A stretch of DNA of 27,150 nt from a virus, in IMG/VR virus record IMGVR_UViG_3300025598_000145, positions 1-27,150 of that record. One strand, given 5' to 3'. Below the pieces are notes generated by a model. The model saw nothing but the letters and a program-made list of their open reading frames with translations, was not told where the DNA came from and made no database searches. Shown here one piece after another: positions 8,288 to 25,732 of the stretch; position 1 is the first letter of the stretch, and the number at the start of each line of letters is the position of its first letter. Position numbers and translations under genes: made by a program.

Positions 8288-9364
8288 TTAGTTGGTTTCT
8301 GCGATAACTACAGACTGGTCAGTGATAAGACCAAGACCGTAGATTGCGTACCAAGCAAGAGCGTGTTCACGACCGAAGTCAAGAATACCGCCGTCACGAA
8401 GCTCAACTGGAAGTGAGATAGCGTGACCGAATGCATTGTCTCCAATGAAGATAGCTGAGTAGCGGTCAGATGAGCCGTTACCTGTAGCTGTTACTGGAGT
8501 GGTGTAACCTCCACCTGTTGGGTACTGGATTGATCCTGGAGCTACAGCTGTATCAGTTGTATATCCTGAACCTGCACCATTGGTTACCTTGGTGATCTGG
8601 GTGGTCTCAATGAAGACGGTGTCATAAAGACGGCCGATCTCACCGAGCATGAAGTTACCTGGAGCAGCATACTTTGTTACTTCAATGAACTCTGGGAGGT
8701 CACGAAGACGACGGCTCTGGTGTGGGTGAACGAATGCAACGTAGGTCTCGCCAAGCCTTGGGATGTTCTTGGTTGCGAGGGTCTCAACTGCGTCCTTAAC
8801 GGTACGGGTTGAGAGGTATGATGCACCGGTCATGGTTGCACGAGAAGTTGCTTCTGTGCCATATGCATACCAGTTGTTAACTGCTGAGAGGTTAGAGCGA
8901 TCTTCGCCATAGATGACTGAAGATGCTGCCATAAGGGTGTCACGAGCCTGGCCATCAAGATAGAGAGCCATGTTGCGACCAAGAAGACGTGAAGCAGAAG
9001 CCATAACGTCATCGAAAGAAGCGTTGAGAAGAAGCTCAGATACTGCGATTGCGTATCCCTGCTCTGCAACGGTGATTGAGAACTGCTGTGCTGTCAATGC
9101 GTTGGTTGACATACGGACGCCTTCAACGAGAGTTGAAGCGAATCCGAGGTTGTTGTAACGCATGAAGTTGATCTGGAGACCAGGAGCTACGCCAAGTTCT
9201 GTCTTCTTGACTGCGAACTGCTCGAAGCGCAAGATAGGCATTGACTGGAATAGAATTTCCTTAGACCAGATGGTCTGAATTGCTTGTGTAAGCTGGCTGT
9301 TAGCGCCAGAGTACGCTGTAGGTGCTGCGGCGAGATTGCCGGTACCTGTTACGGCTGATGCCAT
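8288..9364 (-). CDS. Major capsid protein, N4-gp56 family (358 aa)
   Basis: ATG at 9364 with AAGGAG upstream. The sequence has the family pattern of N4-gp56-type capsid proteins: LTQAIQTIWSKEILFQSMPI, RFEQFAVKKTELG, GLQINFMRYNNLG, TLVEGVRMSTNALTAQQFSI, AEQGYAIAVSELLLNASFDD, RLLGRNMALYLDGQARDTLM, then VAFVHPHQSRRLRDL and GEIGRLYDTVFIETTQ. These proteins take the HK97 fold and form the icosahedral shell. Length fits the family. It follows the scaffold gene directly and is followed by a strong stem-loop. Codons and context are uniform with neighbours. Confident call. Confidence 0.9.
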   Translation of the reverse strand: MASAVTGTGNLAAAPTAYSGANSQLTQAIQTIWSKEILFQSMPILRFEQFAVKKTELGVAPGLQINFMRYNNLGFASTLVEGVRMSTNALTAQQFSITVAEQGYAIAVSELLLNASFDDVMASASRLLGRNMALYLDGQARDTLMAASSVIYGEDRSNLSAVNNWYAYGTEATSRATMTGASYLSTRTVKDAVETLATKNIPRLGETYVAFVHPHQSRRLRDLPEFIEVTKYAAPGNFMLGEIGRLYDTVFIETTQITKVTNGAGSGYTTDTAVAPGSIQYPTGGGYTTPVTATGNGSSDRYSAIFIGDNAFGHAISLPVELRDGGILDFGREHALAWYAIYGLGLITDQSVVIAETN

Positions 9365-9416: not shown

Positions 9417-10190
9417 TTACCCGAAGATTCCCTTGTTACGATCATTAGCTGCTGAACCCAACAGACGTGATCGGTTTTTTGCGTAATCAGCTACCGACAT
9501 AGAAGCAATTTGCTCCGGTGTATACGATTGTTGGTCCGAATTGTTTTCCAAGGTTGGTGGCAAGGTTGTCCTTGTACCGGTCATATCACGACGCTGAGCC
9601 TGAATAGCCTGCTGCGCCGATTCCAGAAGCTTTGAGGTTTTATCCTTCAGTCTGGTAATACTCTGTTCTATCTCTTCTACATTGTTACCAGTGACCATAT
9701 CGATCAATTCTGGTGCAATGTTATCTTGCTCCTCACTAATGCGGCGATTGAGATACTGTGTTAGTTCAGCATACTCACGCTCACGCTCAAGGAGAGCAAA
9801 TGCACGTTCACGCTCTAGGCGCTCCGCCTCAATCTTAGAAGCCCATTCCTTTTCTTTTGTTTCAAGGAGTGTTCGAACGTCCATATCGGCTTCAAGCCTC
9901 TTACGTTCTGCTTCTGCTGCAGCTTCTGCTGCCTGGCGAGCCTCTGCTAGGCGCTCTTCACGATCCTTCTTAAGAAGATTAAGTTCTTCTTTAAGAGAGT
10001 CGATTTGTGGGTACAGTTTTGATTTTTCTTGCTCACGTACTTTTTGCAAGTCTTGCTCTGTGTATCCCTTAACTTGAGTGAACTGATCTTCAGCCACTGC
10101 CTGCTGGGCTACAGGTGCGGTTTGGTTTACCTCAGATGCAAACGCATCTTGAGCCACTGCACTGTCTACTGCTGTTGAGTTTTCTGACAT
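9417..10190 (-). CDS. Capsid scaffolding protein (257 aa)
   Basis: ATG at 10190 with AAGGAAT upstream. Residues about 50-170 are a long charged coiled coil (Glu, Lys, Arg and Ala-rich: DSLKEELNLLKKDREERLAE, then RKRLEADMDVRTLLETKEKE). A Gln/Thr-rich linker follows, then the C-terminal tail MSVADYAKNRSRLLGS...NKGIFG. A coiled-coil protein with a basic C-terminal tail placed between portal and capsid genes is the usual scaffold arrangement, in which the tail binds capsid subunits during procapsid assembly. No protease domain is fused to it. The plus-strand Arg/Ser-rich ORF here is a shadow. Confidence 0.8.
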   Translation of the reverse strand: MSENSTAVDSAVAQDAFASEVNQTAPVAQQAVAEDQFTQVKGYTEQDLQKVREQEKSKLYPQIDSLKEELNLLKKDREERLAEARQAAEAAAEAERKRLEADMDVRTLLETKEKEWASKIEAERLERERAFALLEREREYAELTQYLNRRISEEQDNIAPELIDMVTGNNVEEIEQSITRLKDKTSKLLESAQQAIQAQRRDMTGTRTTLPPTLENNSDQQSYTPEQIASMSVADYAKNRSRLLGSAANDRNKGIFG

Positions 10191-10301: not shown

Positions 10302-12023
10302 TTACTTAGCGTTTTCTTCTGAGCTAGGGCTATCCTTCTGATCGTTAGATACGCCTCGTCCAGGAAGCTTTGTTCCATAGGCCTTTGTTACAAGCTCTGC
10401 TTGCATCTGAGCCAAGGTTTGCTCTTCAAATGGTGTGATGACTCCAGGTTGTCCTAGAGGTCCAGGACCTGTTCCATCAGCTGGAGCGGCTCCAGGAGGA
10501 AGAGTTCCATCCGGCATCATACCAGTTAATGACGTAATTGCTGAAGCGATCTGTTGCTTTATGAGGGCTAGGGCGCCATCAGCTTTAGCATCAGCAATAA
10601 GCTCTGCACGAATTTCTTCAAGCTTCTCATCTGGGAACTCCTCGCCTAGCTGGCGTAGAGCACCTTCACGGGATTCAAGATTCATCTGCATCTTGGCCTG
10701 GATTTCCTGCAAAGTAATGAGCTTATCAAGAGGTAGTGGAGGTGGGAAGTGGACTACAGACTCGTAGGTCAATGGATCATTAAGATCCAAGGCAAAGAGC
10801 TGCTGGTCCTTAATAGGTCCATTTACATCTGGATTATAAACAAATGCTTCTGGCTCCTTGAATGCAAGGGTTAGGAGGACTAATTCATTGATACGTCGAA
10901 TACCCTCGCTATACTGCACAATCTTCTGGTGGTAGCGATTCATCAGAGGTTGATACTGGATAGCGAGGGCAACACCTGAGGTATTAGAAATAGGCTGTAC
11001 TTGTCCAAGAGCGGTCTCTGGGACACCAACCATTTCGTGCATAGCAGTCTTAACTACCTTAAGATACTCAAGAGCTCCTGCAAGACCGGCTCCGCCGCCC
11101 TCTAGGTTCTCAACACGAGCATCCTTTGGAAGACCGCCCCAAACCTTCTTAGGGCCCTTCTCAAGGGCTGAGGCCTTAGCTCCGATAATAACTGTAACGG
11201 GGGCTGCGTGATAGTTGACGATATCGGCAATATCAGTAGCCACTTCATTATAGTTACGGTTCAAGACAATAAGGTCGTGGCAATCAGATAGGCCCCATGG
11301 AGATCCTGAAACTAAGACGTTTGGAATATGAATGATAGGAACTACGCCGATTGGATTAGGGCGTGAATCAATTAGCTCGTCGTTAATGTATTCTTCGATG
11401 CGATCATCGGTCAAGATTTCAGTATAGGTATAGACCTGACGAGTACCTTCGATAGATGTGCCCCAGAAACGGTACTTGAGCTTAAAACGAATCAAACGTG
11501 TGCGGTCGTGTGGGTGAAACTCTGGGAAGCAGAAAGATGAGTTCAGGGGAAGGATACGAACTCGTCCTGGATGAGGGCGACCAATAGAATCTTCAAATGC
11601 TTCTTCGTAAGCTACTTTAACAAAGCAGTCACCAGATACTCCGCCTTGCTGTCCCATTTCCCATAGAACGCCATGCTTGTTATTATCAATCTCCCAAGCA
11701 CGCTTTAGGATATCTGGAACGATTGCTTCTGTAGCCACTGGGCTGCGGAATGAAACTCCACGGCTAAATGTAAAGTTAGTAATAAAATCTGTAAAGGCAC
11801 GATAGTAGTTATAAACCATCTGTGCTTCGCCAATTTCACGGCGATAGGACCAGTGATGTCCTAAGTACATTGCCCAGTTAAGAGAATAACGATTTAAACG
11901 TGGACCATGAACTTCAAACTCTTCATCTGCTAGTTCTACAAGACCAAGAGGTGAAATTGAGATGGTTAAGTCTGATGACGCCGCCCTATAACTGGGAGGT
12001 GAAAAATCGATACCACCACTCAT
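10302..12023 (-). CDS. Portal protein (573 aa)
   Basis: Identified by position (downstream of TerL, upstream of scaffold and capsid) and by sequence: an N-terminal segment with YLGHHWSYRREIGEAQMVYN, a core with GDCFVKVAYEEAFE, IPNVLVSGSPWGLSDCHDLI, and a helical stretch MHEMVGVPETALGQVQPISN then SGVALAIQYQPLMNRYHQKI typical of SPP1-gp6-like portals. The C-terminal ~100 residues are Pro/Gly-rich (MPDGTLPPGAAPADGTGPGP) and likely flexible. Its ring forms the DNA entry and exit vertex and docks the terminase. The start ATG at 12023 has only a weak site (GGAAT). A 61-aa ORF covering 10193-10378 overlaps its 3' end out of frame and is not called. Confidence 0.85.
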   Translation of the reverse strand: MSGGIDFSPPSYRAASSDLTISISPLGLVELADEEFEVHGPRLNRYSLNWAMYLGHHWSYRREIGEAQMVYNYYRAFTDFITNFTFSRGVSFRSPVATEAIVPDILKRAWEIDNNKHGVLWEMGQQGGVSGDCFVKVAYEEAFEDSIGRPHPGRVRILPLNSSFCFPEFHPHDRTRLIRFKLKYRFWGTSIEGTRQVYTYTEILTDDRIEEYINDELIDSRPNPIGVVPIIHIPNVLVSGSPWGLSDCHDLIVLNRNYNEVATDIADIVNYHAAPVTVIIGAKASALEKGPKKVWGGLPKDARVENLEGGGAGLAGALEYLKVVKTAMHEMVGVPETALGQVQPISNTSGVALAIQYQPLMNRYHQKIVQYSEGIRRINELVLLTLAFKEPEAFVYNPDVNGPIKDQQLFALDLNDPLTYESVVHFPPPLPLDKLITLQEIQAKMQMNLESREGALRQLGEEFPDEKLEEIRAELIADAKADGALALIKQQIASAITSLTGMMPDGTLPPGAAPADGTGPGPLGQPGVITPFEEQTLAQMQAELVTKAYGTKLPGRGVSNDQKDSPSSEENAK

Positions 12024-12622: not shown

Positions 12623-14206
12623 TTAAAAGAAAGGATTGGAGCTTACCTCTACGGTAGGCATAACCATTTCTTGGGTCAGGGAGCAGGCAAGGGCCAAAGA
12701 GTCCACAAAATCGTCGTGGGCGTGGACTTCATCCGGCGCAGCCACTAAAAAGTTAGGCCCCTTATACTGAACTTCAGCATCTGTCATCTGTTGGTAAAAC
12801 TTCTTCCAGATACGAAGGCGACGGGTTTTAGCGTGGGCAGGCCAAGAGACCATCTGACGTTGAATCAGGGCCTGAAGGTGCTTCCACCGCTTTGACTGCT
12901 CAGTAGGGCTGGAAGTAACTGGCACCACTTCTGCTCTAGGCATAAGAATCTTTAGACGTCCGGCCACTGCATCACCTACACCATTAGCATCTACTCCGAT
13001 AGCAAGTACATCATAGTTTCCAAGGAACTGCTGGATTTGGAAATATTGTTCTTCCCAGTCATCTCCTTGAAGCTCCAGCCAGTTGAGCACCCTATGATCA
13101 TAGTATCCATATTCATCTGGACGATCCCAGTCTACCCAAACTACTGTGACCACTGTGCTGTCCATCTTACGGGCCGGGTCAATTCCAACCACAACAGGAG
13201 AGCGGTGCCAAGATTTAACTATTTCTTGTGAAGTATCTCCAAGATCATCCATAATGTTGGATGTTACGAACATACCTCGCTCAAGTAGCCACTTGCAGTT
13301 ATAGGATAGCTGGAACTCATCAGAGTCCTCGCCAATACGAAGCATCTCTTTCTTAATAAACTTTTCATAGTTAGGCTGAATCTTAGCCACATCTTTCCAG
13401 TCCCACTGGAAATGATTCTGCTTAGCCTTAGAGTTCTGTGTTTGACGGCGCTTATTAAGTTGAATAGAACGATAGAAACCATTCTTGTGGGTTGTAGGAG
13501 TGCCTGTTTTAACCATGGTGGCGTTATAGTACGCACCCATAGGCGCAATAGACTTTGATACCACAAAGTCATCTGCTTCTTGACACTCATCAACAATAAT
13601 AAGGTGGAAAGACTTAGACTCAATTTTAGCTCTTGGGTTAGCTGTCATCATCATGATGGTGCTTCCAGACTTCTTTAGCTTTAAGTTTCTTACAACGCCA
13701 GGAGTCTTAGTAGGAATATCATCAATTTCAGGGTCACCAAAGACTTCCATAGCTCTTTCAGAGGTAAGGCGGGACACTGTACGGGAGTATAGAGTTTCTA
13801 CCTGGTTTTGAGTAGGAGCAAACATTCCCACCCAAATTCCATCACCAAACTTACCTAAAAGCTCTGGATAGATCTTAGCTAGTCGTGGAAGGATAACCAT
13901 CAGTGTGGCCACTGTATTAGCGATGGTTTCTGACTTTCCTGACTGACGTGATGCGAGGGCGGTGATTTCTTCGCCATCATTGATAATGACTGATTCGATA
14001 ACACGGCGTGCCAAGGGTTCCTGGTACGGGTGAAGCTTATGTCCTACAAGCATCTCCATGAAGGCCATGATCTTAGTGATCAAGATCTTAACAAATTCTT
14101 TGGAGAGTTCGTCTAGAGTGTCCTCTTCCTCATCTTCAGGAATAGGATTGAAGGATTCATCCTCCACTGCCTCAAGATCTACCTCTTCAAACTCGTGTTC
14201 GTTCAC
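12623..14206 (-). CDS. terL: Terminase large subunit (527 aa)
   Basis: The packaging motor ATPase and nuclease. The ATPase domain has a variant Walker A (SRQSGKSET, K91), Walker B with catalytic Glu (HLIIVDECQE, D207-E208), and the coupling segment VKTGTPTTH near 232-240. The RNase H-like nuclease domain has acidic residues D343 (VVGIDPARKMDS), D406 (IGVDANGVGD) and the terminal DDFVDSLALA (D498/D499/D502). All expected catalytic positions are present. The N-terminal ~35 residues are strongly acidic. The start is GTG at 14206, overlapping the stop of the upstream 75-aa ORF as GTGA. No obvious small-terminase homologue is adjacent. One of the three short upstream ORFs might fill that role. Confidence 0.95.
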   Translation of the reverse strand: MNEHEFEEVDLEAVEDESFNPIPEDEEEDTLDELSKEFVKILITKIMAFMEMLVGHKLHPYQEPLARRVIESVIINDGEEITALASRQSGKSETIANTVATLMVILPRLAKIYPELLGKFGDGIWVGMFAPTQNQVETLYSRTVSRLTSERAMEVFGDPEIDDIPTKTPGVVRNLKLKKSGSTIMMMTANPRAKIESKSFHLIIVDECQEADDFVVSKSIAPMGAYYNATMVKTGTPTTHKNGFYRSIQLNKRRQTQNSKAKQNHFQWDWKDVAKIQPNYEKFIKKEMLRIGEDSDEFQLSYNCKWLLERGMFVTSNIMDDLGDTSQEIVKSWHRSPVVVGIDPARKMDSTVVTVVWVDWDRPDEYGYYDHRVLNWLELQGDDWEEQYFQIQQFLGNYDVLAIGVDANGVGDAVAGRLKILMPRAEVVPVTSSPTEQSKRWKHLQALIQRQMVSWPAHAKTRRLRIWKKFYQQMTDAEVQYKGPNFLVAAPDEVHAHDDFVDSLALACSLTQEMVMPTVEVSSNPFF

Positions 14207-21409: not shown

Positions 21410-22513
21410 TTAGGCCCAAGGTGTGATTGTGATCGCAGCACCAGCAGCGGTTGATGCAGTACCTGCAGCAATGCTCTGGGTCTTGATTGTTGCAGAAGCA
21501 CCCTTGACTGTTGGGGTACCTGTAGGTGAAGCAACAGCGATAGCGGTTGTTCCGTTAGAGACAAATGAGACGGTGTTTGTCGCACTTGCGGTAACAGTCC
21601 ATGTACCGTTAAGTTCTGTTGTTGTAGCATCTGCAAGACCAGCGATTGTGATCTTTGTACCAATTGGGAATGCAGCGCCAGCACCTGTAGCAGTAACAGT
21701 TGCAGTAGCTGAGCTAGCTGTACGAGCAGCAGCTGTGATTGAGATCGGTGTGTTGGTTGCAGCAGAAGCTGTGGTAGCAACAAGCTCGACATCACCAAGA
21801 AGTGTTTGAGCATTAGTGGTCGAAAGACCTAGAACTGATGGAACACTTACATAAGCAGTTCCGCCTACGAATGAACCATCTGAGTCAGATGCCCCAGCAC
21901 CAAGTTGTGCGTAGCCTGTTTGACCAGTGATTGATACGCCTGAACCAGCTGCATTAGTTACTGTGAACTGGTATGCAGTTGCTGATGCGATTGTAGCGTT
22001 TGTAAGGTTGAATGCAGAGGTTGTGAGACCTGAGATCGATACGTTCTGTCCAACCAATGAAGCTGGATTGATTCCGTTTGATTGAGCTGTATAGGTGACG
22101 GTTGTTCCGTTGCCCGAAGCAGCTGTTACACGAAGGATTGGGTCTCCAGCAATAAAGCTTGGGAATCCTGAGTAATTAGCTTCTGCGATGTTCTGGGTAT
22201 CCTTGGTGTAATCCAAGTATGCAGAGTTTACGGTAGAAGTGTTGGTCCATTGGACGTTCTGTGAGCCGCCAACTGTAACAGTTGCGGAAGGTGTTCCTGC
22301 AGAACGCTCATCGTTTGGTTGTAGTGGGAAGTTACCCCATACGAAATCAACGTTAGGGCGACCCGTAACAGTTGATGTGGTTACATTTTGCAACATTGCG
22401 TATGCGTATGTTGCTGAGGTTGTTGACACAGACAAGCTTGTGTTACCGGTAATTGGGTTACCAGTATAAACTGTCCATGACTCTAGGCTATTGCCTTCGA
22501 GATTAGTTGCCAT
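21410..22513 (-). CDS. Beta-rich surface/decoration protein with PASTA-like segment (367 aa)
   Basis: I chose ATG at 22513 because AGGA lies 8 nt before it. The ATG at 22519 would have only 2 nt spacing. The protein is almost entirely Ser/Thr/Ala beta-rich. Residues about 120-200 (TVTYTAQSNGINPASLVGQN, VSISGLTTSAFNLTNATIAS) and about 270-350 (FPIGTKITIAGLADATTTEL, NGTWTVTASATNTVSFVS) are two copies of a beta module that also occurs in the connector and the 1052-aa fibre. Between them lies AYVSVPSVLGLSTTNAQTLL, the start of a PASTA domain, which in other proteins binds peptidoglycan. Probably a virion decoration or cell-wall-binding protein. Monocistronic, or expressed with the hydrolase, and ended by a strong terminator, so high expression is likely. 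Confidence 0.7.
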   Translation of the reverse strand: MATNLEGNSLESWTVYTGNPITGNTSLSVSTTSATYAYAMLQNVTTSTVTGRPNVDFVWGNFPLQPNDERSAGTPSATVTVGGSQNVQWTNTSTVNSAYLDYTKDTQNIAEANYSGFPSFIAGDPILRVTAASGNGTTVTYTAQSNGINPASLVGQNVSISGLTTSAFNLTNATIASATAYQFTVTNAAGSGVSITGQTGYAQLGAGASDSDGSFVGGTAYVSVPSVLGLSTTNAQTLLGDVELVATTASAATNTPISITAAARTASSATATVTATGAGAAFPIGTKITIAGLADATTTELNGTWTVTASATNTVSFVSNGTTAIAVASPTGTPTVKGASATIKTQSIAAGTASTAAGAAITITPWA

Positions 22514-22547
22514 GTACATAGTCCTATCTAGAGAGGGTTAGAGAGTC

Positions 22548-22581: not shown

Positions 22582-23166
22582 CTAGGCTTCTTGTACGTAA
22601 ATGCGGGTTTCTCCACCAGAGTTGACATCAAATTCCCTTGAAGCATCAATTGCCGTAGTCATAGCCTTCTTAGCGTACTCTATATCGGTAAATAGACGTG
22701 AGCTAGTCTTTGCGGCCTGGAATAAAGAGCCTTGAGCAAAGTCTCCACCACTACCTGAGGTAATGTAGTTACGGATGTCACGGTCGTATGAGTAGTCTTC
22801 ATCAATAATATAGACGATACCTTGGACAGCTATGATAAACACGTTCTCATATTGTGCGTAATCGCCATCATCCTTCATGTCGTATCCGCCATCAATAAAT
22901 AGCTGACGCATGCCGGGAATAAAAGTCTTAACCATCCAGGTGTCTAACTGTTCAACAGTAGAGTTAGCACGTGGCTTTGGGGCCTTCCAAGCTCGTTGTA
23001 GGAGGTTCATACCTCGACCAAGCCCACAACCTGCGATAAGGATGCCGTTGTTATCGATAACCTTATGATCGTTCATTTGCACTTTACGGTACTCGTAATA
23101 GGTTGCTTGGGTATCTGCACCCATAACTACCCAGCCGTCACCCTGAATTGCAGCGATTGTTGTCAT
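22582..23166 (-). CDS. Proteasome beta/HslV-type Ntn-hydrolase (194 aa)
   Basis: ATG at 23166 with GAGGG upstream. After Met removal the protein would begin with Thr (MTTIAAIQGDGWVVMGADTQ), like proteasome beta subunits and HslV, where Thr1 is the nucleophile. D18 (GADTQAT) fits Asp17, K35 (DHKVI, before GILIAGCG) fits Lys33, S139 in TSGSGGDFAQG fits Ser129, and D180-x-x-S183-GG fits Asp166/Ser169. All catalytic-site positions are therefore present with no long propeptide. Length fits a single subunit. No alpha subunit or ATPase partner (Mpa or HslU type) is coded here. Roles to consider: head-maturation protease, turnover of host proteins, or modification of the host proteasome. It lies just upstream of a virion-like decoration gene. 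Confidence 0.8.
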   Translation of the reverse strand: MTTIAAIQGDGWVVMGADTQATYYEYRKVQMNDHKVIDNNGILIAGCGLGRGMNLLQRAWKAPKPRANSTVEQLDTWMVKTFIPGMRQLFIDGGYDMKDDGDYAQYENVFIIAVQGIVYIIDEDYSYDRDIRNYITSGSGGDFAQGSLFQAAKTSSRLFTDIEYAKKAMTTAIDASREFDVNSGGETRIYVQEA

Positions 23167-23196
23167 TTTTCCCTCTCGTAGGTTCCCCTAAGGGTA

Positions 23197-23622
23197 TCAC
23201 ATGTACTCTTGAACGCCTACCTCAAAGGTCTCAGCCCGAGTACGGGGTAGAGTTCCATATGAGGTTCTGAGCCAAGGAAGGCCCAATAATGCATCATTTA
23301 CAAAGTCATTAGTGGAATTGGCTGTTTTTAACATATCCCACATTTCGGGCAAAACGCCATCGTACTGAATCCAAGTATATTGGGCTCTTCCGCCGACGGA
23401 CGGGTCTGTCATTACAATGACAAGAGTTTCAGTATTAGAGTTATAGCAGCACTTCTGAGCTCGGGGGCGTGGACCACCGGAGGTGGGGGCGGGAATCTCT
23501 TCATATCCTGGCCCACATACACGGCTACGCTCTCTATCGTACTTTAAGGCAGCAGCAATAGCGGCATAGTTATCGTAATCGACAACAGGCCTAAAGTGCC
23601 TTGCACGATATCGATCGCTCAT
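23197..23622 (-). CDS. KTSR-like domain protein 1 (141 aa)
   Basis: I chose ATG at 23622 because it forms an ATGA overlap with the FmdB-like stop and has GGGGAGG just upstream. A TTG four codons earlier is less likely. The core CCYNSNTETLVIVMTDPS, YTWIQYDGVLPEMWDMLKTA, NSTNDFVNDALLGLPW follows the KTSR-domain layout (strand 'T.TL.V.F', 'Y.Y..VP...W..L..A.S...Y....I...Y'). The protein at 25196-25732 has the same core, so the two are paralogs. KTSR domains occur alone in phages and bacteria and are thought to bind nucleic acid or protein. Function unproven. Confidence 0.75.
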   Translation of the reverse strand: MSDRYRARHFRPVVDYDNYAAIAAALKYDRERSRVCGPGYEEIPAPTSGGPRPRAQKCCYNSNTETLVIVMTDPSVGGRAQYTWIQYDGVLPEMWDMLKTANSTNDFVNDALLGLPWLRTSYGTLPRTRAETFEVGVQEYM

Positions 23623-23780
23623 TGTCCTCCCCAACCTCCACCCTTAAAAACGGCGGGGGTAGCTTGGAAAATCTTACTCATAGACTGTTGGCAACAGACA
23701 GGGATACTGTCATCACCAAAAGACTGATAAATCTCTTGAACGCCTCCACAGACGTTGCACTTGTAATCGTAGTTAGGCAT
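23619..23780 (-). CDS. FmdB-family zinc ribbon protein (53 aa)
   Basis: Found by translating the gap. ATG at 23780 overlaps the previous stop (TAATG), and its TGA overlaps the next ATG (ATGA). The sequence begins MPNYDYKCNVCGGVQEIYQS and continues VCCQQSMSKIFQATPAVFKG then GGWGGQ. This matches the FmdB/Zn-ribbon family (MPxYDYxCxxCG..FE..QS...C.xC...., then a VFKGxGW ending). The second knuckle is CC rather than CxxC, so metal binding may be altered. FmdB-type proteins are small zinc ribbons of uncertain regulatory role and are common in actinobacteria and their phages. Confidence 0.85.
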   Translation of the reverse strand: MPNYDYKCNVCGGVQEIYQSFGDDSIPVCCQQSMSKIFQATPAVFKGGGWGGQ

Positions 23781-24086: not shown

Positions 24087-24113
24087 AATACTTCCTTACA
24101 TTCGTTGCCCTAG

Positions 24114-24184
24114 CTCCCGAACATGGATTCGAACCACAACTGAGTGCTCCAGAGGCACCTGTACTACCGTTATACGATTCGGGA
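24114..24184 (-). tRNA. tRNA-Gln (anticodon CTG)
   Basis: A complete 71-nt cloverleaf: acceptor TCCCGAA/TTCGGGA, D arm GTA/TAC, anticodon arm GGTGC-CTCTGGA-GCACT with CTG in the loop, and T arm TGTGG-TTCGAAT-CCATG. The weak first pair U1-A72 and discriminator G fit glutamine identity. CCA is not encoded. It serves CAG codons. Confidence 0.92.
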
Positions 24185-24243
24185 AAAAATATGGGCGGCA
24201 CGCAGATCGCAATCTTTCATACGGAATCACACTCGTACCGTCG

Positions 24244-24316
24244 CTGACCTTCCTGGGATCGAACCAGGGACAACTCGATTAACAGTCGAGTGCTCTGCCT
24301 GCTGAGCTAAAGGTCA
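24244..24316 (-). tRNA. tRNA-Asn (anticodon GTT)
   Basis: 73 nt: acceptor TGACCTT/AAGGTCA, D stem GCTC/GAGC, anticodon arm CTCGA-CTGTTAA-TCGAG with GTT, T arm CCTGG-TTCGATC-CCAGG, discriminator G. All stems pair perfectly. CCA is not encoded. Confidence 0.95.
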
Positions 24317-24415
24317 AAGTATCAGGTCGGTTTATCTTTCACCACGCCGTAAGGTCTCGTAACCGAGTCCCCTGATGAGACCGTCTAGGTCGTGCTAGCG
24401 TCCGCCTAGATACTT
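24317..24415 (-). ncRNA. Candidate tRNA-sized structured RNA between tRNAs
   Basis: A closing stem AAGTATC/GATACTT (24317-24323 with 24409-24415, 6-7 bp) brackets three possible arms: CTAGG/CCTAG (24385-24389 with 24405-24409), GGTCTC/GAGACC (24353-24358 with 24377-24382), and a weak CGG/CCG arm. The first base abuts the 5' end of tRNA-Asn. There is no TTC-type T loop and no normal anticodon loop, so it is not a standard tRNA. It could be a degenerate tRNA, a tRNA mimic or another small RNA. Confidence 0.4.
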
Positions 24416-24460
24416 GCGTAAACTTCAAACCAAATGAGAAGCAATACAAGTGTTACCTCG

Positions 24461-24534
24461 TTGCAGAGACGGGATTTGAACCCGTGACCTCTTGGTTATG
24501 AGCCAAGCGAGATGCCGAACTTCTCCACTCTGCG
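24461..24534 (-). tRNA. tRNA-Met (CAT), initiator-type
   Basis: 74 nt with anticodon CAT (CTTGG-CTCATAA-CCAAG). The acceptor is CGCAGAG/CTCTGCA, so the first pair is a C1-A72 mismatch, the hallmark of bacterial initiator tRNA. The D stem GAGA/TCTC gives the A11-U24 pair also typical of initiators, and the T loop is TTCAAAT. The anticodon stem has two rather than three consecutive G-C pairs above the loop (T29-A41 instead of G-C). Discriminator A. CCA is not encoded. Confidence 0.85.
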
Positions 24535-24584: not shown

Positions 24585-24614
24585 AGTATAGCGTGATTAT
24601 TTGATTTTGATCAA
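24585..24614 (-). promoter_or_regulatory. Promoter of the tRNA cluster (minus strand)
   Basis: TTGATC (24609-24614, inside the end of hsp20) and TATACT (24585-24590) with an 18-bp spacer. The context GC-TATACTGTA is the same as at the hsp20 promoter. It would transcribe the tRNA-Met to tRNA-Gln cluster independently of hsp20. Confidence 0.6.
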
Positions 24615-25109
24615 CTTTGGTTGCAACTCTTCGGGTAGCTCTTGCTTCAAGAGAATACGAAGCATGCCGTCCTTCATCTCTGCTCCATCTACCACAACGT
24701 ACTCTGCCAACACGAAGTTTTGCTTGAAGTCACGGGTAGCGATTCCGTTGTGTACGTACTCGTCCACAGATGGCAGTTTAGAGCCTTCTACGGTCAACTG
24801 GAGCTCTTTTACTGTGATGGTGATATCTTCCTTACCAAAGCCTGCTACAGCGATCTCCAGGACGTAATTGTCCTTAGATTTGAAGATGTTGTATGGAGGA
24901 TAGCTAGCTTGCTTAGCTGCCTGGCTAACGCTCTCTAGAGTTTGCAAGAGCGGATCAAATCCAATAGCCCAACGATTAAACTGTGGGAACAAGGATTGGA
25001 TTGTTAGCGGCTGTGGAGGCGCTGGTTGCTTAGGATGCTTAGACCATGGGTCCTGATAACGATCCTTAAATGGATCATGTGGACCTGTATTTTGATATGG
25101 ATGTGCCAT
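24597..25109 (-). CDS. Small heat-shock protein, Hsp20/IbpA-like (170 aa)
   Basis: ATG at 25109 with AAGGAG eight bases upstream. Residues 1-50 are Pro/Gln-rich and end with RWAIGFDPLLQTLESV, the N-terminal signature of class A IbpA-type chaperones. The alpha-crystallin domain spans about 70-158: YPPYNIFKSKDNYVLEIAVA, GFGKEDITITV, then FVLAEYVVVDGAEMKDGMLR with the A-x-x-x-n-G-x-L motif. The C-terminus LIKIK carries the I-x-I-type anchor. It holds unfolding proteins as an ATP-independent chaperone. Hsp20 genes are recurrent in phages of aquatic bacteria and may aid head or tail assembly. It has its own promoter and a folded leader. Confidence 0.9.
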   Translation of the reverse strand: MAHPYQNTGPHDPFKDRYQDPWSKHPKQPAPPQPLTIQSLFPQFNRWAIGFDPLLQTLESVSQAAKQASYPPYNIFKSKDNYVLEIAVAGFGKEDITITVKELQLTVEGSKLPSVDEYVHNGIATRDFKQNFVLAEYVVVDGAEMKDGMLRILLKQELPEELQPKLIKIK

Positions 25110-25168: not shown

Positions 25169-25198
25169 AGTATAGCCGACTTTTAGAGATTTTGTCTA
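25169..25198 (-). promoter_or_regulatory. hsp20 promoter (minus strand)
   Basis: TAGACA (25193-25198) and TATACT (25169-25174) with an 18-bp spacer. The -35 box overlaps the stop codon of the upstream KTSR-like gene. The predicted start gives a leader of about 53 nt with two hairpins before the hsp20 ATG. Confidence 0.6.
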
Positions 25199-25732
25199 AC
25201 TAATGAACTCACCTTGTAATTGAGTGAAATTTGTCTTACTCCAAGGATGCCCGTCAAGACCGGATGATCTCAGATAGCGACCTGTAGAGTCTGACCTCTT
25301 CAAACCCTCCCATTGAGACTTAGCCACCCCGTCATACCGGATTAGAGGCTCTGGCTCCCCGGTAGGGTCATAGGTACCAGTTGCCTTGTTCTTCTTCACC
25401 GGAGCTCTAAAGATGATTACTAGCGTCTCGCTATCGTGATGATAGCCGCACTGCTCCGCTCTATCACGTTTATCTGCTTTGTCCGATTTATCACTTGTAG
25501 GTGCTTCAATCACCTCAAAGGTAGATGGCCATGTACCGATACGATTACGAGTAGGATTAAAATCAAACTCTTCATCTTGGAGCTCTTCTAGCTCCTCAGT
25601 AGCCTCAAGCTCTTGAGCTTCCCGCTCTGCTCGTTCCCTGGCAGTACGCTGTATTAGAGACTCACGCTTAGCAGGATATAACCGCCCATTCTTACCACGG
25701 TAATATCCCTCAGGAATGTTGTTATCTGCCAT
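25196..25732 (-). CDS. KTSR-like domain protein 2 (178 aa)
   Basis: ATG at 25732, with no Shine-Dalgarno. The -10 TATAGT ends 6 bases before the ATG, so the mRNA is probably leaderless. The N-terminal 100 residues are charged and helical (RESLIQRTARERAEREAQEL, then ATEELEELQDEEFDF). The C-terminal ~80 residues (CGYHHDSETLVIIFRAP, LIRYDGVAKSQWEGLKRSDS, TGRYLRSSGLDGHPW) match the KTSR-like core of the protein at 23197-23622. The extra coiled segment distinguishes the two. First gene of the leftward accessory block, facing the rightward control region. Function unknown. Confidence 0.8.
   Translation of the reverse strand: MADNNIPEGYYRGKNGRLYPAKRESLIQRTARERAEREAQELEATEELEELQDEEFDFNPTRNRIGTWPSTFEVIEAPTSDKSDKADKRDRAEQCGYHHDSETLVIIFRAPVKKNKATGTYDPTGEPEPLIRYDGVAKSQWEGLKRSDSTGRYLRSSGLDGHPWSKTNFTQLQGEFIS

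Follow-up and report, generated by a model that had tools for sequence, protein, structure and literature searches.

The gene at positions 22582–23166 of the window (the whole stretch of viral DNA that was analysed, 27,150 nucleotides) encodes a protein that, judged by its predicted fold, is a phage-borne group I proteasome homologue of the BPH/HslV type, a kind already known. We propose, with a probability of roughly 0.55, that it is a self-assembling, unfoldase-independent peptidase, which is made late in infection and aids the infection of freshwater Actinobacteria. The gene is fixed in the phage clade of the window and exchangeable in podophages resembling Planktophila phage LanE43AprF5 (hereafter F5-like podophages).

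Gene and translation start

The open reading frame covers exactly positions 22582–23166 and lies on the minus strand, which the original prediction had not specified. The features of the gene are as follows.

22582..23166, minus strand: gene of the proteasome-like (group I, BPH/HslV-type) Ntn-hydrolase, 194 amino acids, ATG start, Thr2 N-terminal after Met removal
23167..23206, minus strand: 40 nt upstream of the peptidase gene; ribosome-binding site GAGAGG; stop in frame 8 codons before the ATG
22861..22881, minus strand: codons of the acidic loop DMKDDGD (residues 96–102), the pore-loop site, which follows helix 71–92 and aligns with TKEDED of BPH

With a stop in frame 8 codons before the ATG and the GAGAGG ribosome-binding site ahead of it, the gene cannot encode a propeptide. 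The position of the ATG together with this stop indicates that removal of Met alone exposes the active-site Thr2, as had been predicted for a protein with an N-terminal Thr and no long propeptide. The open reading frame, family matches, predicted fold and active-site residues all agree that a proteasome-type gene is present here.

Family assignment and predicted fold

In profile searches, the protein was matched by PHROG 1040 ('peptidase HslV family') with an E value of 3.5e-22 and by the Pfam Proteasome model PF00227 with 22.9 bits against a cut-off of 22.4 (E 7.5e-5). The HslV models TIGR03692 and NF003964 gave 16.2 and 16.9 bits, far below their cut-offs of 157.75 and 137, and the archaeal 20S beta model TIGR03634 gave 22.8 bits against a cut-off of 224. 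A phmmer search of the PDB with the single protein returned nothing solid (best E 0.18), and a profile built from 39 relatives matched HslV, BPH and 20S beta with E values of 1e-13 to 3e-11.

The AlphaFold2 model calculated from these 39 sequences has a mean pLDDT of 92.7 and a pTM of 0.89; an input of 17 close sequences gave a pLDDT of 60, and the more diverse set raised it to the former value. The best fold match in the PDB is BPH from Thiobacillus denitrificans (Z 21.5 over 172 residues, 2.2 Å), followed by 20S beta chains (Z about 20) and HslV (Z 19.4). The alignments with proteasome, HslV and BPH chains extend across 163–174 residues with Z scores of 19–21.5 and correspond to the alpha-beta-beta-alpha proteasome fold; all 1000 of the 1000 PDB chains that were re-aligned with the model had Z scores of at least 8. 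The structural alignment with BPH begins with Thr2 placed on Thr1. In the model, residues 71–92 form helix H2, and the profile alignment pairs the conserved DMKDDGD loop with the acidic loop TKEDED in BPH. The nearest predicted viral structure comes from an uncultured Caudovirales phage and is annotated as 'HslV' (TM 0.90). Structure prediction and a profile search against the proteasome beta and HslV families had been suggested as checks; they gave an Ntn proteasome fold and no non-Ntn fold. The prediction of a proteasome-type Ntn-hydrolase with an intact site is therefore upheld by PHROG 1040, PF00227 and the fold of the model (Z up to 21.5).

Active site and selection

The catalytic assignment made earlier (D18, K35, S139, D180 and S183) is correct, and these residues are invariant, together with T2, in 17 close relatives. 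In a set of 187 distinct relatives, T2 occurs in 185 (Ser replaces it in one), D18 in 186 and K35 in all 187. The oxyanion Gly48, equivalent to Gly47 of the proteasome, is kept in 181, and position 139 is Ser in 149 and Thr in 31, so that 180 of the 187 have one or the other. D180 and S183 are less conserved than T2, D18 and K35, and vary in distant members of this set. The pN/pS ratio of the gene against close relatives is approximately 0.10–0.19, and close pairs range from about 0.10 to 0.23, values to be read with synonymous sites near saturation. On these sequence comparisons, the gene is under strong purifying selection with catalysis selected for, and its product is apparently a working proteasome-like peptidase. 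One relative (L033:2726–3307) has the catalytic Asp changed to Glu (AETNST), the sole such case seen.

Comparison with known homologues

BPH (PDB 5ovs, 5ovt and 5ovu), the closest solved fold, has neither a propeptide nor an AAA+ partner (PMC5777263), and its pore loop is long and acidic in a peptidase with no known unfoldase (PMC8665760, PMC5777263). The window protein shares the absence of a propeptide, the N-terminal Thr, the acidic elongated loop after helix 2 and the lack of a dedicated AAA+ gene beside its own. It differs in that the identity is only approximately 20%, BPH is encoded by a chromosomal gene of Proteobacteria rather than by an actinophage, and the ring of the window protein is putative. 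HslV (ClpQ) is likewise related by fold (Z 19.4) and profile match, but the HslV models score the window protein at 16–17 bits against cut-offs of 137 and 158, and no HslU was seen in the 27-kb window fragment.

Phage copies of this enzyme type were known before the window gene. Fuchs, Alva and Lupas described phage-borne group I homologues in 2021, which have no known function or partner (PMC8665760). The description of the gene as unusual is thus only partly right, because such homologues were already catalogued in that survey. AAH, CPH and PPH resemble the window protein as compact group I subunits encoded by phages (PMC8665760). The survey found no Actinobacteria-specific phage with AAH (PMC8665760), whereas the group of the window occurs in actinophages and is assigned here to group I as a whole. 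PPH has about 140 amino acids and lacks helix H2 (PMC8665760), in contrast to the window protein with 194 residues and an H2 helix at 71–92, which is accordingly not a PPH. Named phage genes placed in PHROG 1040 by profile or pairwise match are those of DSL-LC01 (OQ999401), Microbacterium phage Pumpernickel (gp135), Geobacillus virus E3 and Tenacibaculum phage pT24; they differ from the window gene in their neighbours and are 25–34% identical to it.

Genes around the peptidase in the window

The genes of the window that bear on the interpretation are as follows.

21410..22519, minus strand: downstream neighbour, 369 amino acids, no recognised family; a homologue adjoins the peptidase gene in 11 loci and is several kb away in others
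23197..23634, minus strand: upstream neighbour with a weak KTSC domain; open reading frame from TTG, a later ATG being the likely start
24597..25109, minus strand: Hsp20 small heat-shock protein, 1.4 kb upstream of the peptidase gene
12623..14206, minus strand: terminase large subunit (terL), by profile match; anchor for the sample of relatives
10302..12023, minus strand: portal of SPP1 type, by profile match
9417..10190, minus strand: probable scaffold, from position and composition only
8288..9364, minus strand: major head protein, PHROG 1357, with no visible N-terminal pro-domain

The peptidase gene shares its strand with the virion genes; it lies upstream of terL, approximately 10 kb from the portal gene. 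Portal, scaffold and capsid genes are contiguous, and the head module of the window holds no other protease, in agreement with the original prediction. A virion-like decoration gene had also been named as neighbour; the gene at 21410–22519 does adjoin the peptidase gene, but the decoration label is unproven because the product matches no recognised family. Three tRNA genes (Gln-CTG, Asn-GTT and Met-CAT; 24113–24534) lie between the peptidase and Hsp20 genes, and two diverged copies of a KTSC-domain protein (23197–23634 and 25196–25732) flank this Hsp20/tRNA region.

Carriers and host

Scans of IMG/VR yielded at least 166 confirmed window-type relatives and at least 199 of the F5 type; the collection scans were seeded by short exact patterns with the best 80 retained, the loci are non-independent samples, and many of the contigs are fragments. 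A broad alignment of the family (A2) contained no stretch conserved enough for scanning. A sample of the window clade was anchored on terL, independently of the presence of the peptidase. All 16 of its loci with 10 kb upstream of terL carry the gene (14 in the locus by HMM and two by a whole-contig search), and the peptidase is therefore a core gene of this clade.

WhiB is a marker found only in Actinobacteria and in phages that infect them (PMC6802176); it scored above its cut-off in 22 of the 30 relatives' contigs examined. Because they carry whiB, the phages of these relatives infect Actinobacteria. In the 27-kb fragment that forms the window, WhiB was not seen, and the host of this phage, which we infer from the relatives, is probably a freshwater actinobacterium. 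The predicted actinobacterial host also finds support in two cultured Planktophila phages with the homologue, LanE43AprE7 (OX376640; L105) and LanE43AprF5 (OX376641; L026). Both records are unannotated and labelled 'Caudovirales sp. ct2KA10'. These actinophages (PMC10202952) share with the window the peptidase homologue and a capsid of PHROG 1357. They differ from it in that their homologue is only approximately 24–28% identical and lies directly behind the portal, and in being 39 kb podophages, whereas the window is a fragment of a phage type of approximately 90–105 kb. The numbers of window-type and F5-type relatives in IMG/VR show that actinophages, from which AAH was absent in the 2021 survey (PMC8665760), carry a proteasome-type enzyme widely.

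In other clades (around L062–L092, L045 and L049), the gene is located among nuclease, nucleotide-metabolism or regulatory genes. A dual-specificity phosphatase is encoded near the peptidase in the L046–L060 clade (L049:10836–11357), and queuine tRNA-ribosyltransferase and ribonucleotide reductase in the L045 clade (L045:11997–15626).

The slot behind the portal in F5-like podophages

The homologue lies immediately downstream of the portal gene in 84 of 84 F5-like loci, with a gap of about 20 bp in most and within 190 bp in all. A second sample was anchored on the F5-like portals, unconditioned on the peptidase. Among its 74 loci with room, 42 have the homologue, always adjacent to the portal; of the other 32, 31 have an unrelated protein of 72–87 amino acids and one has neither, and no locus has both. 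The small slot protein (L187–L261, e.g. L206 from 11766) has the consensus YSKLDQYCIWLHEYYKSLRKAGF...YPDWV followed by an acidic tail and belongs to no recognised family.

The portal tree requires nine switches between the peptidase and the small gene, at least eight of which are forced by well-supported branches. Such repeated alternation with one other gene suggests a function that is useful but replaceable. One F5-like locus (L003) has a window-type copy (80% identical) behind the portal with F5-like genes on both sides, and another (L017) has a third peptidase type in the slot. Because L003 nests with the window clade and L017 with L051 on the peptidase tree, the slot has been filled at least three times independently. 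A chimeric assembly is an unlikely cause of the L003 arrangement, since F5-like genes flank the copy on either side.

Five F5-like genomes of 37–40 kb have no homologue anywhere (four have the small gene and one has neither), and the N-termini of capsid and scaffold have the same architecture in F5-like phages with and without the homologue. The portal relatives of LanE43AprF5 and LanE43AprE7 in cultured phages are Streptomyces podophages of the Beephvirinae type; their portal is 42% identical, and only small genes are found behind it. The position next to the portal, together with a mutually exclusive alternative gene, provides a functional clue for phage proteasome homologues. Its repetition in relatives makes the role easier to test, and the two cultured Ca. 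Planktophila phages carry this arrangement.

Possible roles of the peptidase

By analogy with BPH and HslV, the subunits would form a closed single or double ring, and the conserved acidic DMKDDGD loop would line the entrance of its chamber. Such a peptidase would need no dedicated unfoldase and would cut proteins that reach this chamber in an unfolded or flexible state. The gene order suggests expression along with the late (virion) genes, and the peptidase may aid infection by eliminating certain proteins of the host or the phage. Purified BPH showed no activity towards standard peptides or casein (PMC5777263), and for this reason a broad degradation of proteins by the phage peptidase may be the wrong picture.

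A rather doubtful alternative is that the peptidase is associated with the portal or the virion without a part in maturation, being made with the portal and either clearing misassembled portal or scaffold or riding in the virion to be injected. The fixed distance behind the portal, the strict alternation with one small gene and the repeated, independent filling of this place, including the window-type copy of L003 between F5-like genes, are consistent with it. However, the L062–L092, L045 and L049 clades keep the gene among nuclease, nucleotide-metabolism or regulatory genes, the window clade has it upstream of terL, and adjacency to the portal may only serve late expression. These differing positions indicate that coupling to the portal is not general. 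With the same low degree of belief, the peptidase could function within the virion-assembly module of freshwater actinophages: produced with the portal, it would act on portal, scaffold or ejection proteins or enter the virion, and the 72–87 amino acid protein could replace it. As far as we know, it would then be the first proteasome homologue with a role in virion assembly.

The original prediction of a head protease of an unusual class is less probable again. Such a prohead protease would be incorporated at the portal of the prohead, where it would process either the scaffold or the N-terminus of the capsid protein. The head module of the window without another protease, the absence of S78 from large window-clade contigs, the place of the homologue in the terL-portal-protease slot in all 84 F5-like loci, the lack of another peptidase among the 25 best of the 34 Pfam families matched in LanE43AprF5 and the three or more independent arrivals in the slot all point in this direction. 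Against these stand the 32 of 74 unconditioned portals with no homologue behind them, the five gene-less genomes, the like N-termini of capsid and scaffold, the Streptomyces podophages with small genes only, and DSL-LC01, in which an S78 match above the cut-off accompanies a homologue located elsewhere (four L062-type contigs have sub-threshold S78 matches only). They make a required capsid-maturation protease unlikely, and on the portal counts, the 37–40 kb genomes and the N-termini we rejected it. The window gene is also about 10 kb from the portal. SPP1 and P22 are examples of phages that have a separate scaffold and whose heads mature with no protease, which counts against this role as well. 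The comparison covered the F5-like relatives, in which many portals lack the gene and capsid and scaffold show no difference; in the window clade, no phage without the gene was found. The prediction gains from the slot next to the portal in relatives, which the letters of the window could not show, but a required maturation role is unlikely.

Action on the degradation machinery of the host is very unlikely; here the protein would be a decoy or a hybrid subunit, either incorporated into the 20S of the host or blocking it, or would work with the HslU or Mpa of the host. For the predicted effect on the host proteasome or pupylation system, the analysis yielded no evidence at all. The host is probably an actinobacterium, and many members of that phylum have a proteasome (PMC6466877), which favours this idea. 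However, the nearest fold, BPH, works with no known partner, the sequence scores well short of the cut-offs for HslV and beta subunits, and phages of Bacillota, Bacteroidota and Proteobacteria carry homologues as well. The literature searched yielded nothing usable on the function of phage proteasome homologues or on the proteasome in Nanopelagicales.

A 20S beta subunit would have a propeptide and an alpha partner; here an in-frame stop precedes the gene, and neither an alpha-like member nor a second copy was found, since each of the 22 records checked contains a single family member. In the large relatives in which both genes are internal, a MoxR/CobS-type AAA+ gene (AAA_5) is located 8.5–15 kb from that of the peptidase, and the peptidase may have an AAA+ partner there; these relatives are window-clade contigs, L049-type contigs and DSL-LC01. 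As an obligate partner across the family, the AAA_5 gene was rejected, because the clades around L045 and L062 have no match above the cut-off. Hsp20 was rejected in the same capacity, being present in 6 of 19 related records. MoxR/CobS-type genes were seen in G002–G009, G014 and W01, several with a CobT-like neighbour.

That the protein is catalytically dead or purely structural is scarcely tenable: D180 and S183 vary in distant relatives and BPH was inert in assays (PMC5777263), but T2, D18 and K35 are practically invariant across the 187 distinct sequences.

Relatives outside phage genomes

Two scans of genome contigs gave no cellular relatives for the patterns used, and a plasmid search gave weak matches only, in Bacillus and Paraburkholderia. 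Weakly similar peptidases (28–29% identity) are encoded on Bacillus licheniformis/paralicheniformis plasmids of approximately 200 kb (NZ_CP021670, NZ_CP014843 and NZ_AP025341), which are possibly phage-plasmids.
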